Assembly: GCA_028282925.1 (NCBI GenBank)
Contig: JANQGV010000018.1
Span: forward strand, 1-52,369
DNA length: 52,369 nt
Direction of reading: 5' to 3'
DNA from: Thermodesulfobacteriota bacterium
GTDB lineage: Bacteria > Desulfobacterota > WTBG01 > CAIYCZ01 > CAIRTM01
Both the position numbers and the translations under genes were made by a program. Below are positions 25,026-33,116 of the stretch, one piece after another. The notes beneath the pieces were generated by a model that had not been told where the DNA came from, made no database searches, and saw only the letters and a list, made by a program, of their open reading frames with translations. Position 1 is the stretch's first letter, and each line of letters opens with the position of its first letter.

Positions 25026-25069
25026 CCAGTAGGCTGTGATGGGCTTCCTAAAACATTCACAACGTGTCA

Positions 25070-25250
25070 TTTTTTTGTAAGAAAACCCGAACCTGGTTCG
25101 TATTGTATATTAAAATTGATGGTTCATACACGTATGGCCGAAGATTTTTTGTGGTGCCAGTTGGTTTTCCTATGTGTTGCTTGACGTAACAGGGGCGCTG
25201 AGGGGCAAAATGCAACAAAAAGATTGGCGTCTTTGTTGCGTCGAGCTTTC
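25070..25250 (+). ncRNA. Candidate structured leader/RNA, copy B
   Basis: 20-position stem CTTGACGTAACAGGGGCGCT / GGCGTCTTTGTTGCGTCGAG in which every non-Watson-Crick position is G-U on the + strand. Confidence 0.5.
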
Positions 25251-25319
25251 CAACCGGCCATTAGTTTTTAATGAGGGTAGTGCCTCTCCTTACTCCCCCC
25301 TGGAGAGTGACCTAGCAGT

Positions 25320-25379
25320 AGATGCGCCTTTTAGCTCGTGTACTAACCCCACACGGACCTAGAGGGCGCATCTTTTTTT
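25320..25379 (+). terminator. Branched hairpin ending in T8; terminator or small-RNA 3' end
   Basis: AGATGCGCC...CTCGTGT...ACACGGA...GGCGCATCTTTTTTTT. Confidence 0.7.
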
Positions 25380-25900
25380 TGCATATGTAGGATACCCTTT
25401 TCATGTGGATCATGTGTAAACCTGATTGTTATACATTCGTTATGTATATTTCATGAACCAGGGAATGTTTCACGCCGAGAATTAAAATAACGGTGTGCAT
25501 TTATAAAAGATTAAAAAAGCTGAACAATAAATTGATACCTAACCACTGATTGATGAGTATTTATACTTAATTTTTCAAGAAATACTTACTAATAGTTGAA
25601 TTAATTTCTTTTTTGTGCTATTTTTTATACAAATAGAAACCGCAGTTTTGCGAATCTATATGCTTTGCTGTGGTTGTGCGACATTTCTAGAGGGGCAATC
25701 ACATCTTAAAAGGTATCCTAATATTTTTTTGTGCCCTGTATATCCACGTAATCTCATAGGTGAAATTCGTTGAGAACGCACGCTTATACATTGTATGTGC
25801 GTTCCAGATGTAAGAATATACACCTGGTTGTTTTTTTGTGTTTTTGTAACTTTAAGGCGCGATGCCCATAAAACATAAGATGATCTTTTAAGGTGTTGTT

Positions 25901-26200
25901 ATGAAAGGGTTTAAAACCAAAATTTGCAGTCTGTTGGTTTTAATGGTTGTTATTTTACCGCTATCAGCATATCTATTATATTTACTGCTGATTAAAAATT
26001 TCTTTGTTGGGTTGATATTTGGGTCGATGTTTGGCTTAGGTTTTATAATATTGTTGCTGATGTGGAAACGAGGTGTCAAAGATAGAATGATTATATATAA
26101 ACTATTGCAAAGAAAAAAAATTGAAGATAGGTTTGATGTACCGGTAGACGGCAATGGATTGCCCCCTAAAACAATAATCGATGAAACGAATAATACATAA
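25901..26200 (+). CDS. Small two-TM membrane protein of unknown function
   Basis: 99 aa; hydrophobic LLVLMVVILPLSAYLLYLLLI and FFVGLIFGSMFGLGFIILLLMW then charged tail. Confidence 0.55.
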   Translation: MKGFKTKICSLLVLMVVILPLSAYLLYLLLIKNFFVGLIFGSMFGLGFIILLLMWKRGVKDRMIIYKLLQRKKIEDRFDVPVDGNGLPPKTIIDETNNT

Positions 26201-26360
26201 ACACGAGCTCTTTTTTTCCCTCTCCGAGATTTGATGTGCAGAACCGCACGACTCACAACTATGAATGGTGTCCCCATCCTGCACGGTCCGGTTAATGCCA
26301 CGGCGCGGCTGGTCTATGGGGGGTTGTCCGCTACGCTACAACAAGAATAGCATGTGTATA

Positions 26361-26393
26361 GGAGGCAGAGGCCTTTTAAGCTTCTGCCTTTTT
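26361..26393 (+). terminator. Intrinsic terminator
   Basis: AGGCAGAGGCCTTTTAAGCTTCTGCCTTTTTT. Confidence 0.7.
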
Positions 26394-26814
26394 TGCGTCT
26401 GGAAGAAATATGCACAAATTAATTGGTTTTTTATGGAGGAGACAGAAATATGTAGATTGTGGTTAAAACTCTGGGCCTAAATGGAAATTCGCTTTTTAAT
26501 CTTTCTTAGCTATTGCCTATTTTTATAAGAATGTCTGAAGCGGTTTGATTTAAAATTATAAAAATCATATGGATGAATGATGTTATCTAACACATAACCG
26601 GTAAACAATGTTTTTTCTGCAATCACCGCGTCAACACATGTGGTGCGTTTTAACAATAACTTAATGGGGGTTTAATTCCAGCTTAATGCTGTCCTCCTAC
26701 ATTGTAACAAAATACAGGTTACGACAGCACAGCATGCTACAAGATATTGGTTGGTTCGAAACCGGTAAAGCTCATTAAAAAAAATCACTGTATGAATTTT
26801 GTTTAGTTCCACCT

Positions 26815-26926
26815 ATACCATGATAAAGCCACACCTCGAGTAATCGGGGGTCGGAAAGTCACGGATCCTGTAGGTGATAAGGGATGGCCGGGCCGCCAGA
26901 GTAAACTGGGTGGCCCGGTTTTTTTA
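26815..26926 (+). promoter_or_regulatory. Candidate GEMM-like (c-di-GMP-I type) riboswitch followed by intrinsic terminator
   Basis: ATAAAGCC...CTCGAGTAATCGGGG (GNRA-type loop) GTCGGAAAGTCACGGATCC...GGGATGGCCGGGCCGCC resembles the GEMM core; CCGGGCCGCC/GGGTGGCCCGG + T7 terminator follows. Confidence 0.4.
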
Positions 26927-26938
26927 TTGAGGAAAAAA

Positions 26939-27048
26939 GTTTGATGGGGCCTGGCGCCAACCGTTCCCCATCTTACGCTGAGTCCAGCAACATGATACTG
27001 CAAAAGGTAACGTTTTTTTGTCTTCAGAATCGGGTGCGGCTTTTTTTT
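26939..27048 (+). ncRNA. Tandem structured RNA candidate, copy 1 (divergent)
   Basis: GATGGGG-CCTGGCGCCAACCGTT-CCCCATC hairpin with conserved loop, TGAGTCCAGCAACATGA, GGTAACG, ends TGCGGCTTTTTTTT. Confidence 0.6.
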
Positions 27049-27180
27049 ATGCCATCGAAACACACACCTGCACCGTGAATTGAGATATGGTTAAGATGAC
27101 AAATCGTTTTCCGTTACCTGGCGGGGGATTTCAACAGCAAGCATTATAAACGAGTAACAAATACAAAGTGTATAAAAAAA

Positions 27181-27290
27181 GTCCGATAGAACCTGGCGCC
27201 AACCGTTTCCTATCGGACCGTGAGTCCGGCACCATGAAGCCGAAACAGTAACGGCTGTTCTGTATGCGGAATCAGGCGCGGCCTTTTTTA
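27181..27290 (+). ncRNA. Tandem structured RNA candidate, copy 2
   Basis: GTCCGATAG...CTATCGGAC hairpin with loop CCTGGCGCCAACCGTT; TGAGTCCGGCACCATGA; GCCG-AAACAGTAA-CGGC; ends GCGCGGCCTTTTTT. Confidence 0.65.
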
Positions 27291-27433
27291 TTACTAGATC
27301 GAAACTTCAGGGCGGTAACTTGAATTAAGTTTTAGTTAATTTGATAAAAATGACTTCATGGGTAACCGACAAGAATTTTAGTAGACTATCAGAAGCATTA
27401 TTGTTGCAAAGGCTGTAAGGGTACATAAAAAAA

Positions 27434-27542
27434 GTCCGATAGGACCTGGCGCCAACCGTTTCCTATCGGACCGTGAGTCCGGCACCATGAAACCGAAACA
27501 GTAACGGCTGTTCTGTATGCGGAATCAGGCGCGGCCTTTTTT
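27434..27542 (+). ncRNA. Tandem structured RNA candidate, copy 3 (leader region of csgE)
   Basis: Nearly identical to copy 2; perfect 11-bp stem GTCCGATAGGA/TCCTATCGGAC; ends GCGCGGCCTTTTTT 62 bp before csgE. Confidence 0.65.
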
Positions 27543-27603
27543 ATATATAACTATTTTTTAAAATAAAATCAAGTAGATGGTGAACCTCGTGCACAGCTCC
27601 ATA

Positions 27604-28005
27604 ATGAAAATACTTGTACCGGCCATACTGCTCTGGACATGTTTCGCGCCCTGTTCAACCGTTGCATCGGATACGGAAATAGACGGGCTCGTCATCGATC
27701 AGACCCAGACCCGTATCGGATATGAGTTCTACAGCACGTTTAGCCTGCACTGGGAAGCTCCGGTTCAGAATGGTGTTGATGATTACACCATTACCGTTAT
27801 TGAACGTGCCAGTCCCCAGTGGGGAAGCTGGATATGGATAAAAATTAACGACGCTTATATGTACCGCAAGATACTGCAGCCGCGCCAGGGTGAAGTTGAA
27901 AATGAGGCCCGCAAGGCGGTGGGTACTGTAAAGAAATACCTGGTTACTGAATATCTCTACCAGAAGAAGCTGCTGGATGAAGATATGAGTGAAAGTGGTA
28001 TATAG
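27604..28005 (+). CDS. csgE: Curli assembly/transport component CsgE
   Basis: EIDGLVIDQTQTRIGYEFYSTFSLHWEAPV...DYTITVIERASPQWGSWIWIKIND matches the CsgE family. Confidence 0.9.
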   Translation: MKILVPAILLWTCFAPCSTVASDTEIDGLVIDQTQTRIGYEFYSTFSLHWEAPVQNGVDDYTITVIERASPQWGSWIWIKINDAYMYRKILQPRQGEVENEARKAVGTVKKYLVTEYLYQKKLLDEDMSESGI

Positions 28006-28038: not shown

Positions 28039-28461
28039 ATGAAAAAACAACTGTTGATATCATTACTTATAGCCTTTGGGGCGCTGTTGTGCACGTCGGC
28101 CTTTGCAACCGAACTGGTATACACACCGGTGAATCCCTCGTTCGGGGGCAGCCCGCTCAATGGTTCGTGGATGCTGGGACAGGCCCAGGCCCAGAACCGG
28201 TTTACCGACAGCCGGGGGCGCGGAAGCCGGGAGTCCAAGTCGTTCGGGCAGCGCCTGGCCGAAGATGTTGTACGGCGTGTAACCAATCGGACCGAGCGGG
28301 AAATTCTGGATGCCATATTCAACCAGGACTCGTCTCTCGGCTCGGCCGATTTCGGCACCTATGGCGGCGACATGTATACGGATGAAGTAACCATCAATAT
28401 TGATGTCTATCAGTATGGTGACGGCAATTCAGCAATGATCGATTCGCCGTACTCGTACTAA
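28039..28461 (+). CDS. csgF: Curli assembly protein CsgF
   Basis: TELVYTPVNPSFGGSPLNGSWMLGQAQAQN signature; RBS GGAGGAGACGGAGG. Confidence 0.9.
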   Translation: MKKQLLISLLIAFGALLCTSAFATELVYTPVNPSFGGSPLNGSWMLGQAQAQNRFTDSRGRGSRESKSFGQRLAEDVVRRVTNRTEREILDAIFNQDSSLGSADFGTYGGDMYTDEVTINIDVYQYGDGNSAMIDSPYSY

Positions 28462-28474
28462 TTGAGGAGGGATA

Positions 28475-29395
28475 ATGAGAAAACAGAAGAATATACTCAT
28501 GCTTGTATTTGTTGTTGCTATATGTTCGCTGACCGGATGCAGCGGTATAGCCAGGAAAGCGGTCATGACAACACCGGCAAAGGTGGGATATCAGACTTCG
28601 GTGCATAAAGACCTGTTGTCGCTTCCGAAGCCGAAACGAAAAATTGTTGTGGCTGTCTATAAGTTCCGGGACCAGACAGGCCAGTACAAACCCAACCCCA
28701 ACGCAACCACCTTTTCAACGGCGGTAACCCAGGGCGCAACCTCAATGCTTATCAAAGCGCTGGAAGATTCAGGCTGGTTTATCCCGGTTGAGCGGGAAGG
28801 CCTGGCCAACTTGCTCACGGAGCGAAAAATTATCCGGGGAACCCGGGAAAATCATAATGGGAAACATAAGAAAACTGAGCACATGCCGGACCTTCCGCCC
28901 CTGCTGTACGCGTCGGTCGCCCTTGAGGGCGGCGTTATTGCCTATGAAACCAATATTGTTACCGGCGGCCTGGGTGCGCGCTACTTCGGCATCGGCGGTT
29001 CCAGCCAGATCCGCAAAGATAAGGTGACCGTTTACCTGCGGTCGGTATCCATTAAAAACGGCAGCATTCTCAATACGGTCTCGACCAACAAGACAATCCT
29101 GTCGCGCGAGGTTGATTTCGGCGTATACCGCTTTATCTCCTACAAACGGTTGCTGGAAATCGAAACCGGACTCAGCACCAATGAACCGACCCAGATGTGT
29201 GTGCTGGAGGCCATTGAAAAAGCGGTTGTGGGAATGGTCATCGAGGGAATTGAAAACAAGGCCTGGGAGCTTGAAAACCCTGAGGATTTTAATTCACCGG
29301 TTATCCAGCAGTATTTGCAGGAGCGCAACGGGGTTGAAAAAGCGATACGGTTCGATCGTGACGGCAATGTAGTGCACGGCGATGATGCTGCATGA
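28475..29395 (+). CDS. csgG: Curli secretion channel lipoprotein CsgG
   Basis: Lipobox LTGC; VVAVYKFRDQTGQYKPN, WFIPVEREGLANLLTERKIIR, GGLGARYFGIGGSSQIRKDKVTVYLR. Confidence 0.95.
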   Translation: MRKQKNILMLVFVVAICSLTGCSGIARKAVMTTPAKVGYQTSVHKDLLSLPKPKRKIVVAVYKFRDQTGQYKPNPNATTFSTAVTQGATSMLIKALEDSGWFIPVEREGLANLLTERKIIRGTRENHNGKHKKTEHMPDLPPLLYASVALEGGVIAYETNIVTGGLGARYFGIGGSSQIRKDKVTVYLRSVSIKNGSILNTVSTNKTILSREVDFGVYRFISYKRLLEIETGLSTNEPTQMCVLEAIEKAVVGMVIEGIENKAWELENPEDFNSPVIQQYLQERNGVEKAIRFDRDGNVVHGDDAA

Positions 29396-29482: not shown

Positions 29483-30049
29483 GTGTGTAGAATGGCCATG
29501 CCGGTTTTGCTCAGTATAATTCTGTGTATTTGTTGCCGAAGCAATCCGGTCAGTGCCGGAAGCAGTGCCGTGCAGTACCAGGACGGAAACAGCAATACAT
29601 CTGCCATTGAACAGTCGGGACGGGGGCACACCATGCGTCACATGCAGATCGGTGACGAACACCGGTCTGAACTGATTCAATCGGGAGAGCAGCACAGCAT
29701 CGACCTGGTCCAGGACGGCAGCCGGCACATTGCTGCTATTGAGCAGTGGGGCTACGGCAACACCGGCCAGCAATACCAGTACGGCATGCTGAACAGCGCC
29801 GATATATCACAGGAAGGCGATTTCAATTCGGCCCGCCAGCATCTCGATGGTGTTGAAAACAGCGCCGGAATCAGACAGTTCGGGAGCTGGAACACGGCAC
29901 AGCAAGGTCTGTATGGCCAAAACAATTATGCACACTGCGAACAAAACGGATATGGCAACACCAGCATGCAGATACACACCGGTGACCATGGCACCAGTTC
30001 GGTAGTGCAGATCGGCAACGGCAATCTAACCGTGCATGGTTATCCGTAG
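29483..30049 (+). CDS. Minor curlin / CsgB-like nucleator (curlin repeats)
   Basis: AVQYQDGNSNTSAIEQSGRGHT... repeated 11-aa curlin half-repeats; RBS AAAGGAGG; GTG 29483 or ATG 29492. Confidence 0.8.
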   Translation: MCRMAMPVLLSIILCICCRSNPVSAGSSAVQYQDGNSNTSAIEQSGRGHTMRHMQIGDEHRSELIQSGEQHSIDLVQDGSRHIAAIEQWGYGNTGQQYQYGMLNSADISQEGDFNSARQHLDGVENSAGIRQFGSWNTAQQGLYGQNNYAHCEQNGYGNTSMQIHTGDHGTSSVVQIGNGNLTVHGYP

Positions 30050-30108: not shown

Positions 30109-31521
30109 ATGAAAAGAACAACAAGTTTTTTATTAGCCATGCTGCTTGCGGCCGGCACGTGGGGCAGTGCTTCCGCCGAGAGCAACTTCGCACAGCAGGA
30201 CCAGGCCGGTGTGGGCAATGGAGCCTTCATTGAGCAGACCGGTATCGCAAACGAGGCCTATCAGAGCCAGCCCGGCGACTCGAATATGGCCGATATCATT
30301 CAGACCGGAGACATTAATTATGCTGATCAACTGCAGGAAGGAAACAGCAATGATGTCACGGCTGACCAGTCGGGAAGCGAGAACACAGTTTTTCAATACC
30401 AAAGCGGCGATGCAAACAGTGCCATGACTGACCAGTCCGGTGATCAGAACTATGCCGATCAGACCCAGGAGGGATCCGGGAATGATGCATATATTAATCA
30501 GCCGGGGCTGTCAAATGAAGCCTATCAGTACCAGATCGGAGACGCAAACAGCGCCGTCATTACTCAAGATGGTGAAATGAACTATGCCGACCAGATGCAG
30601 GAAGGTTCAGCAAACCAGGCAGCTATTGATCAGATTGGCATCGAAAATCAGGCATTTCAAACACAGCCCGGCACCGGAAATACCGCCGAGATTATTCAGG
30701 ATGGTGAGGACAACTATGCAGATCAACTGCAGGCAGGTGAAGGGAATACAGCCTTCATCGACCAAATCGGCATATCAAACGAAGCATACCAGACCCAGCC
30801 GGGTATGGATGGCCTGGCCGAGATTTTCCAGGACGGCAGCGAGAATTTTGCCGATCAGGTTCAGGATGGTACCGGCAACGTAGCTTATATTGAACAGGTC
30901 GGAGACCAGAATGAAGCGTTTCAGGAACAATCCGGTGAATACAACAATGCAGTCGCTCTGCAGTTCGGAAGCCTTAATGTGGCAGAACAGATCCAGGCAG
31001 GCTCAGGTAATGATGCAACAATCGAACAGACAGGGGACGCAAATCTGGCCATCCAGAATGCGCAGTCCACGAACAATCTGGCAATGATAGATCAGGACGG
31101 AAACTTAAATATCGCAGCCCAGTTGCAGGACGGAGATTCCAATATAGCACTTATTGAGCAAAGGGGAGATGAGATGCTTGCGGAACAGGAACAGTATGGA
31201 AGCAGCAACTCAGCCTATATCAACCAGTCCGGAACGGAAAACAGTGCCTATGAATTGCAGGACGGCATCGGAAACATTGCTGAAATTTTTCAGACCGGAA
31301 CCCATGCCGGCGATGTTTACGGATCTGCGTATGGCGCTGAAGTCATTCAGACCGGTGATGCAAATACCGCATCCGTTCTTCAGGACGGGTTCGACAATTA
31401 CAGCCTTGCCCAGCAGTCGGGCAACCTGAATGCAAGCACCCAGATCCAGAGCGGAACATTTAATATCAGTACCATTGCTCAGAGCGGCACCAGCAATATT
31501 GCCACCTGCATTCAGCAATAA
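30109..31521 (+). CDS. csgA: Major curlin, CsgA-like, unusually large (470 aa)
   Basis: About 39 consecutive N-x-A-x-x-x-Q-x-G-x-x half-repeats; signal peptide. Confidence 0.88.
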   Translation: MKRTTSFLLAMLLAAGTWGSASAESNFAQQDQAGVGNGAFIEQTGIANEAYQSQPGDSNMADIIQTGDINYADQLQEGNSNDVTADQSGSENTVFQYQSGDANSAMTDQSGDQNYADQTQEGSGNDAYINQPGLSNEAYQYQIGDANSAVITQDGEMNYADQMQEGSANQAAIDQIGIENQAFQTQPGTGNTAEIIQDGEDNYADQLQAGEGNTAFIDQIGISNEAYQTQPGMDGLAEIFQDGSENFADQVQDGTGNVAYIEQVGDQNEAFQEQSGEYNNAVALQFGSLNVAEQIQAGSGNDATIEQTGDANLAIQNAQSTNNLAMIDQDGNLNIAAQLQDGDSNIALIEQRGDEMLAEQEQYGSSNSAYINQSGTENSAYELQDGIGNIAEIFQTGTHAGDVYGSAYGAEVIQTGDANTASVLQDGFDNYSLAQQSGNLNASTQIQSGTFNISTIAQSGTSNIATCIQQ

Positions 31522-31598: not shown

Positions 31599-33116
31599 AT
31601 GAATCTGCAGAAACATAAAAAATGTATGGCTACCGTGATGAAAACTGCCGTAATCAGCATGCTGATTTTTTTAATGTCTGCGGCGTATGCGTACGCCGGC
31701 CAGCCGAAATATGTATTCTTTTTTATCGGTGACGGTATGGCAACCGTTCAGGTAAACGCCGCTGAGATATTTGCGTCATCAGTTATCGATCCTGACACTC
31801 GGATGCATGAAAAACTTGGTATGAGCCAGATGCCGTACCATGGTCTGGCCACAACATTTTCTGAAAATTCATACATTACCGATTCGGCGGCCGCCGGAAC
31901 GGCCCTTGCCTGTGGTTATAAAACCATGTCGGGTGTTGTTGCCATGGACGCCGATGGTACCGTTTCCTACAAAAGCATTGCAAAGGCGGCCCATGAGGCA
32001 GGTATGAAGGTTGGAATCGTTTCCAGTGTTTCCATCGATCATGCTACCCCTGCTGTATTTTATGCAAATCAGCCGAGCCGCGGTATGTATCATGAAATCG
32101 ACCATGACCTGGCCAACAGTGGTTTTGAGTATTTTGGCGGCGGTGGCCTGAAACGACCCGACGGTTCTCTGGGGAATGCATACGATGCAGCAATTGCAAA
32201 TGGTTACACCATTGTAACGGACAGAGCCGCTCTTGAAGCTCTGACGCCGGATTCCGGTAAAGTACTTGCCTACAACCATACCCTCGACGGCAGCAAAGCC
32301 CTGTACTATGAGCTTGATCGCCCGGCCGATCATATCTCTCTGGCCGAGTTTACCGCCAAAGGTATCGAACTGCTCGACAACCCGAATGGTTTTTTCATGA
32401 TGGTCGAAGGCGGCAAAATTGACTGGGCATGCCACGCAAACGATGCCCGGTCGGCAATTGAAGACACATTTGCTTTTGATAATGCCATTAAGGAAGCGAT
32501 TGATTTTTATAACGCCCACCCGACGGAAACCCTGATTGTTGTAACCGGCGACCATGAGTGCGGCGGCCTGACAATCGGATATGCCGGTACCGGCTATGGT
32601 ACGTACTATGACATCATCAACCGTCAGAACCAGTCATATATCGAATTCGGCAAAGTGCTGTCAGCCGCAATCGGCTCCGGCGAAACCTTCAATGATATCA
32701 AAGACGACATCACGACCGCTTTCGGCCTGGAATTCTTAAGCGCCTTTGAAAAACGCACACTGGAAGCGCTGGCTGATGCAGGCGACCACGAAGCTTCTGT
32801 AACGCTGCGCCTTGCCGTCGACAACTATGAACTGCAGGACCTTATGCGGGCTTTTACGCTGAGCAAGATGCCTCGCTCCAGCAGGCCGTCCGACAGGCGT
32901 ACGTATGAGCTGTACGGATCATACGATCCTCTTACGGTTACCTGTACGCATATGCTGAACAAGAAAGCCGGTATTGCCTGGACCTCATACTCACACACCG
33001 GTGTTCCAGTTCCAGTATTCGCCCAGGGCGTTACCGGTGAAGATTACGTAGGTTTTTATGACAATACCGATATCGCCAAAAAATTGGCTGCCGGTATGGG
33101 TCTCACTCTGAATTAA
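31599..33116 (+). CDS. Secreted alkaline phosphatase (PhoA superfamily)
   Basis: KYVFFFIGDGMATVQ, ITDSAAAGTALACGYKTMSGVVA, VTGDHECGGLTIG. Confidence 0.93.
   Translation: MNLQKHKKCMATVMKTAVISMLIFLMSAAYAYAGQPKYVFFFIGDGMATVQVNAAEIFASSVIDPDTRMHEKLGMSQMPYHGLATTFSENSYITDSAAAGTALACGYKTMSGVVAMDADGTVSYKSIAKAAHEAGMKVGIVSSVSIDHATPAVFYANQPSRGMYHEIDHDLANSGFEYFGGGGLKRPDGSLGNAYDAAIANGYTIVTDRAALEALTPDSGKVLAYNHTLDGSKALYYELDRPADHISLAEFTAKGIELLDNPNGFFMMVEGGKIDWACHANDARSAIEDTFAFDNAIKEAIDFYNAHPTETLIVVTGDHECGGLTIGYAGTGYGTYYDIINRQNQSYIEFGKVLSAAIGSGETFNDIKDDITTAFGLEFLSAFEKRTLEALADAGDHEASVTLRLAVDNYELQDLMRAFTLSKMPRSSRPSDRRTYELYGSYDPLTVTCTHMLNKKAGIAWTSYSHTGVPVPVFAQGVTGEDYVGFYDNTDIAKKLAAGMGLTLN

Follow-up and report, generated by a model that had tools for sequence, protein, structure and literature searches.

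The leader region of the curli operon in the window analyzed here (52,369 nt, contig JANQGV010000018.1 of a Thermodesulfobacteriota bacterium) contains three tandem copies of an element belonging to a genuine, uncatalogued RNA family with a covarying secondary structure. The units are likely small RNA genes located on the minus strand, and we lean slightly towards a model in which they represent cis-antisense RNA genes embedded in a riboswitch-controlled csg leader.

Direct repeats of 120 nt were identified at positions 26930-27049, 27172-27291 and 27425-27544, with a start-to-start spacing of 242 and 253 bp. Sequence comparison thus bears out the places and spacing of the three tandem copies upstream of csgE described in an earlier note on this DNA; that observation is confirmed, and the interpretation given with it is partly supported. 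Identity is 98% between copies 2 and 3 and 71-77% between copy 1 and the other two. The spacers between the copies also show some mutual resemblance, and therefore the repeat unit may comprise the whole ~245 bp. The A-run, the TGAGTCC block and the 3' T-run reported for each copy are all present, as is the hairpin with a changed stem (GATGGGG/CCCCATC versus GATAGGA/TCCTATC). No further DNA-level copies were found in this genome, and none beyond short chance stretches in the relatives searched. The repeat had been proposed to be an undescribed structured RNA, and indeed no family of Rfam release 15, those of plasmid antisense RNAs included, matched the copies on either strand, as searches at the gathering score and at E-values up to 10 returned chance matches only. 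Rfam searches with homologues of the units likewise gave no family for the element itself.

Just 5' of copy 1, a c-di-GMP-I riboswitch of the GGC type followed by a terminator had been overlooked in the earlier note. The aptamer is located at 26818-26901 on the plus strand (RF01051, 49.4 bits, gathering score 35; RF03167, 58.7 bits, E 4e-13, gathering score 59). According to folding and terminator scans, an intrinsic terminator follows at 26887-26925 on the same strand, and its 5' arm overlaps the 3' strand of the aptamer. Because of this overlap, the ligand would free read-through, and the riboswitch probably acts as an ON switch. The ~1.8 kb upstream of the riboswitch (25026-26817) lacks a clear gene or known RNA and presumably harbors the csg promoter. 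Downstream of the copies, the plus strand encodes csgE, the first gene of the operon (27577-28005; PF10627, E 6e-27), csgF (28039-28461; PF10614, E 4e-22), csgG (28475-29395; PF03783, E 1e-66), a CsgB-like subunit with curlin repeats (29483-30049; PF07012; PRK10101, E 9e-18) and a curlin-repeat protein resembling the major subunit CsgA (30109-31521; PF07012, E 2e-53, nine stretches). The distance of ~62 bp given earlier between copy 3 and csgE holds for the in-frame ATG at 27604 preceding the signal peptide, whereas the open reading frame itself begins at 27577. The curli genes are followed by an alkaline phosphatase gene (31599-33116); a distant homologue (26% identity) in genome G003, L066:6129-7919, is accompanied by a separate copy of the new RNA.

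A covariance model built from the three window copies, as the earlier note had proposed, identified homologues with strong covariation, namely four more members in G003 and one preceding csgE in G002. A second model comprising eight members yielded further copies in G000, G003, G004 and G005, and a third, minus-strand model of 15 members (R3) returned the same 15 with E-values from 1.6e-20 to 5.6e-10. The E-values of members used in building a model are not independent, so that the first finds represent the fair tests, e.g., 1.2e-8 for C112 of G003 with the first model and 1.0e-11 for C139 of G005 with the second. The family thus comprises 15 copies at 13 loci in five of the nine genomes of one Thermodesulfobacteriota family. 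Covariance searches covered 395 genomes of the phylum, and nothing else convincing was detected in the remaining ~385; the RNA family therefore appears, as far as visible, to be confined to these five genomes.

The R3 matches next in rank (E 7e-4 to 0.1) were rejected on inspection, except for a bare hairpin at L063:433-580 on the minus strand (AAAAGGCCCGATAG...CTATCGGGCC), which resembles the terminator hairpin alone and occurs on a contig that also holds a family member. Weak matches in L053, L060, L061, L062, L202, L203 and L205 turned out to be either coding sequence or coding repeats rich in lysine that precede terminators, and phylum-level matches with E-values of 0.001-0.02 were taken as chance, mostly without inspection. 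Exact-pattern scans of GTDB and IMG/VR contigs returned JANQFE010000121.1 (Thermodesulfobacteriota isolate PL23a_bin.71), G003's own contig, as the sole full member; the remaining matches were bare hairpins or chance. No match to the RNA family occurred in plasmid and phage records.

The secondary structure consists of two hairpins, the 3' one of which is the terminator on the minus strand. In the alignment of eight members, 14 of 20 pairs showed changes on both sides, and compensatory changes occurred in 18 of 24 pairs among fifteen members. Across the latter, 82% of the cells were paired; slid controls gave 36-47% and shuffles 73%, and none of 500 shuffles reached any of the five measures. 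The shuffle test is inflated by the relatedness of the members, and the slid controls retain this relatedness yet favor a structure derived from the same sequences. Most of the pairs are also kept in six members that were not used to build the second model. It is very improbable that the units lack an RNA function and are terminators for both directions or repeats at the DNA level: a terminator hairpin flanked by an A-run and a T-run would fit such elements, but the pair of covarying hairpins, the partial conservation of a loop and the promoter boxes found at one end go beyond the needs of a terminator. In addition, a mobile DNA repeat would occur as many near-identical copies at unrelated sites, whereas the copies number 1 to 6 per genome, have diverged and are linked to leaders, with none in plasmids or phages; the units are thus not a scattered mobile repeat, which the earlier note had named as a finding that would refute it.

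The copies had been taken as transcribed from the plus strand, a reading from which the signals of the family point away. On the minus strand, a U-run directly follows the hairpin in 14 of the 15 members, as in a canonical terminator, the exception being G002. On the plus strand, the T-run is less regular and set apart from the hairpin, and it is also the complement of the A-rich start of the minus-strand RNA. The minus-strand 5' end has an extended -10 motif (TGNTA) no more than 25 nt away in 9/15 members, compared to 2.0 +/- 1.3 in the null and 0/15 on the plus strand; as the motif was noticed before testing, its p-value is optimistic, and the plus strand serves as the fair control. The full promoter score reached 6.39 on the minus strand versus 4.76 +/- 0.51 in the null, with no excess on the plus strand, and the strands differed only weakly when a sigma70 scan was run without the extended -10 term. 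The best promoter of the family precedes C32 of G003 (TTGACT-17-TAAAAT, with TG in front of the -10 box).

Folding and wobble pairs point in the same direction. The mean fold z-score was -4.25 on the minus and -2.90 on the plus strand (Wilcoxon p 0.015); copy 1 folded better on the plus strand. In the plus-strand alignment, 28 A-C and 6 G-U cells were counted among the non-Watson-Crick cells; since A-C turns into G-U on the opposite strand, this wobble bias favors the minus strand. The minus-strand terminator stem contains 15 G-U and 3 A-C cells, which was matched by none of 5000 composition-matched shuffles, and across all helices the bias lies only slightly above the column-composition control. 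On the basis of terminator placement, extended -10 boxes, folding and wobble bias, we read the units as minus-strand small RNA genes. A plus-strand, tandem riboswitch-like RNA with a terminator ahead of csgE, sensing c-di-GMP or another signal, is improbable, since the strand signals all favor the minus strand; the T-run at the plus-strand 3' end and the better plus-strand folding of copy 1 would fit such an RNA.

In the window, each predicted small RNA gene on the minus strand spans ~117 nt. Copy 1 (26932-27048; R3 E 5.8e-16) would start near 27048 and end with a terminator hairpin at 26976-26939 and a U-run at 26938-26933; promoter scoring gave no clear promoter of its own. Copy 2 (27174-27290; R3 E 6.9e-20; fold z -3.6) has a predicted 5' end near 27290, a weak promoter, and a terminator hairpin at 27218-27181 preceding the U-run at 27180-27174. 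For copy 3 (27427-27543; R3 E 1.6e-20; fold z -4.7) the 5' end is placed near 27537, and its minus-strand terminator, a hairpin at 27471-27434 with the U-run at 27433-27427, was also picked up by the terminator scan. A promoter-like site of copy 3 lies at 27544-27572 on the minus strand (TTGATT at 27572-27567, 17 nt, TATATA at 27549-27544) and is not significant alone (p 0.40). Thus, an own promoter together with an intrinsic terminator is found family-wide and is weak for window copies 1 and 2, whose lack of a convincing promoter counts against the minus-strand gene model.

The proposed recognition loop, GGUUGGCGCC, is located in the terminator hairpin and holds UUGGCG; it lies at 27448-27457 on the minus strand in copy 3 and is identical in copies 1 (26953-26962) and 2 (27195-27204). 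YUNR turns accelerate the loop-loop pairing of antisense RNAs. Across the family, the loop contains YUNR in 12/15 and UUGGCG in 8/15 members. The 16-nt loop CCTGGCGCCAACCGTT that had been called invariant is accordingly common to the three window copies but varies in the wider family, where the exact TTGGCG/CGCCAA core occurs in 8/15 members. A ligand-binding role, as put forward earlier for the repeats, is disfavored by this loop variation, which leaves no invariant binding-site nucleotides, as well as by the strand signals. Also the proposed 5-bp pairing between the loop and the 3' end is not kept family-wide: the best pairing averaged 5.0 bp compared to 5.2 bp in shuffled sequences, and a long-range pseudoknot of the repeat units was rejected. 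The missing fixed binding-site sequence and pseudoknot also speak against the riboswitch-like plus-strand RNA.

Given minus-strand transcription, the family members lie opposite the leader of a gene for a secreted protein at 9 of the 11 assessable loci, where secretion was judged from N-terminal signal-like stretches and domains; of the 13 loci in total, C37 of G000 (contig end) and C77 of G003 could not be assessed. The leader genes encode CsgE (twice), an Exo_endo_phos protein with Big_5, a DUF11/HYR protein, a CARDB protein, an alkaline phosphatase, a Laminin_G_3 protein, a Peptidase_M64 protein, the signal peptide and domain of which are in different frames, and a Metallophos protein with dockerin. 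The order of riboswitch, terminator, RNA gene(s) and csgE is common to this genome and to G002, which belongs to a different genus. Two members are free-standing, C139 of G005 between convergent genes and C273 of G000 between two genes on its own strand; as they lie outside leaders, a pure cis model leaves them unexplained.

These free-standing members would fit the possible, though less probable, alternative, also named in the earlier note, that the same minus-strand genes give rise to multicopy trans-acting small RNAs, which target distant mRNAs or a protein and whose siting reflects co-regulation. Several copies per genome with a common structure point in the same direction, as does the FopS family of Bacteroides, whose members are partly intergenic and partly antisense and which works in trans (PMC11697453). 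However, the placement of the family is strongly linked to leaders, and loops diverge among the loci of one genome: inside the csg array the loops are shared, with 16-20 nt identical, and between the loci of G003 they are mostly different, as expected of cis action. Outside the array, all exact matches to the decamer GGCGCCAACC, the complement of the csg loop, that a search of this genome located fall inside long open frames, and therefore no set of trans targets is apparent.

Most c-di-GMP-I riboswitches of these genomes likewise stand before genes for such secreted proteins. Nine c-di-GMP-I-GGC riboswitches occur in this genome, and GGDEF proteins were found in all nine genomes of the taxonomic family. 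The new RNA is present at 2 of 30 riboswitch loci scanned, which are only the csg ones. In G000, a c-di-GMP-I switch precedes a CARDB-type gene whose homologue in G003 (42% identity over 164 aa) has the new RNA there instead, and these homologues (L065:5599 onward and L149, G000 C148) represent a natural swap of leader elements. Both this swap and the shared gene kinds, together with the sense orientation of the plus strand to the downstream gene at the 9/11 assessable loci, would be expected of the plus-strand riboswitch-like RNA, against which the T-run set apart from the hairpin, also explained as the complement of the minus-strand start, has to be weighed. Little support exists for the idea that, in addition to the antisense genes, the sense strand forms a new c-di-GMP-responsive class replacing c-di-GMP-I switches in sister genomes.

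Several further elements were observed in these leaders. Three loci of the new RNA in G003 have a shared extra element in front of them (L064:5820-5970, plus; L110:1881-2030, minus; L116:1274-1420, minus) of the form AAAGCCATACGT ... GCATTA..T..TGGTGCAT ... followed by a terminator. It lacks an Rfam match, resembles a shortened c-di-GMP-I aptamer and may represent a riboswitch that has been reduced or altered. Leaders frequently contain an extended and very strong Shine-Dalgarno sequence, GAAAGGRGGTGA, followed by a tiny reading frame, ahead of the ribosome site of the real gene (L063 near 5890, L064 near 6120, L066 near 6120, and L112; in c-di-GMP-I leaders, L155, L163, L168 and L170), and these frames are possible leader peptides or standby sites. 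In G001 and G007 (L156, L157, L159, L160, L175), several c-di-GMP-I riboswitches are located before small response-regulator genes instead of genes for secreted proteins.

In the cis-antisense model that we favor by a narrow degree, each unit would produce a small RNA of ~105-115 nt from the strand opposite to csg, ending at an intrinsic terminator and, for most members, starting from an extended -10 promoter. The terminator hairpin would expose a G-rich loop (GGUUGGCGCC in csg) with the YUNR/UUGGCG motif of fast-pairing antisense RNAs. A riboswitch-bearing csg transcript must start left of 26818 and cross the three genes, and the small RNAs would therefore be fully complementary to the leader. 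They may first form a kissing contact with the nascent csg leader, then pair with it and reduce expression by termination, by cleavage through RNase III or by blocking the csgE start, so that basal leak past the riboswitch would be silenced. At high c-di-GMP levels, read-through would outpace the antisense supply and overrun the antisense promoters, resulting in a threshold, which the three copies would raise. The analysis establishes the family with its structure, the strand signals and the siting within the leader, and we infer transcription, pairing and threshold; that the effect on csg is repression is suggested by analogy to described antisense RNAs. More tentatively, and with considerable doubt, the leader might constitute a two-layer curli switch, in which read-through is set by the c-di-GMP riboswitch and a titration threshold by three antisense RNAs that share one loop and are encoded inside the leader of that riboswitch, leading to an all-or-none decision on fibre formation.

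If true, c-di-GMP sensing, antisense RNA and the export of amyloid fibres would be joined in one leader, and the family would provide natural antisense regulators with diverging loops that are open to orthogonality tests. The apparent confinement to one little-studied Thermodesulfobacteriota family limits the reach of these findings. They also illustrate that strand choice from sequence alone can make an antisense RNA gene look like a riboswitch.

With regard to known systems, the c-di-GMP-I-GGC riboswitch (RF03167), directly upstream on the plus strand, is distinct from the repeats themselves. The FopS RNAs of Bacteroides, 14 paralogous sRNAs (RF04319) with outer-membrane gene targets, act in trans via their 5' end (PMC11697453). 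They resemble the new RNAs in being paralogous sRNAs, some intergenic and some antisense, but differ in this 5'-end mode of action, and the window copies are without an Rfam match. The Inc RNA, or RNAI, of I-complex plasmids is associated with a 5'-rUUGGCG-3' loop, according to a title (Asano 1998) cited in PMC10724649. To the extent conveyed by that title, it shares with the new family a UUGGCG loop in a hairpin antisense RNA (8/15 exact), and kissing with a leader hairpin is likewise proposed here. In contrast, the new RNAs are chromosomal, have two hairpins and neighbor csg and other secreted-protein genes instead of controlling a plasmid rep gene, the leader pseudoknot of those plasmids, between the target loop and a downstream complement, is not kept here (5.0 bp versus 5.2 bp in shuffles), and no plasmid sequence matches. 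The DonS RNAs of Bacteroides are cis-antisense RNAs of 78-128 nt that are divergent to susC genes and lower susC expression (PMC7366714). They belong to another phylum, and the comparison drawn here is by description; in addition, the csg leader carries three tandem copies, and a c-di-GMP riboswitch in the same leader is not described for DonS. Length, antisense position on the 5' side of operons for envelope or secretion functions and the occurrence of several members per genome are shared, and by this analogy DonS may be regarded as the nearest described kind and as a working precedent for the proposed action.
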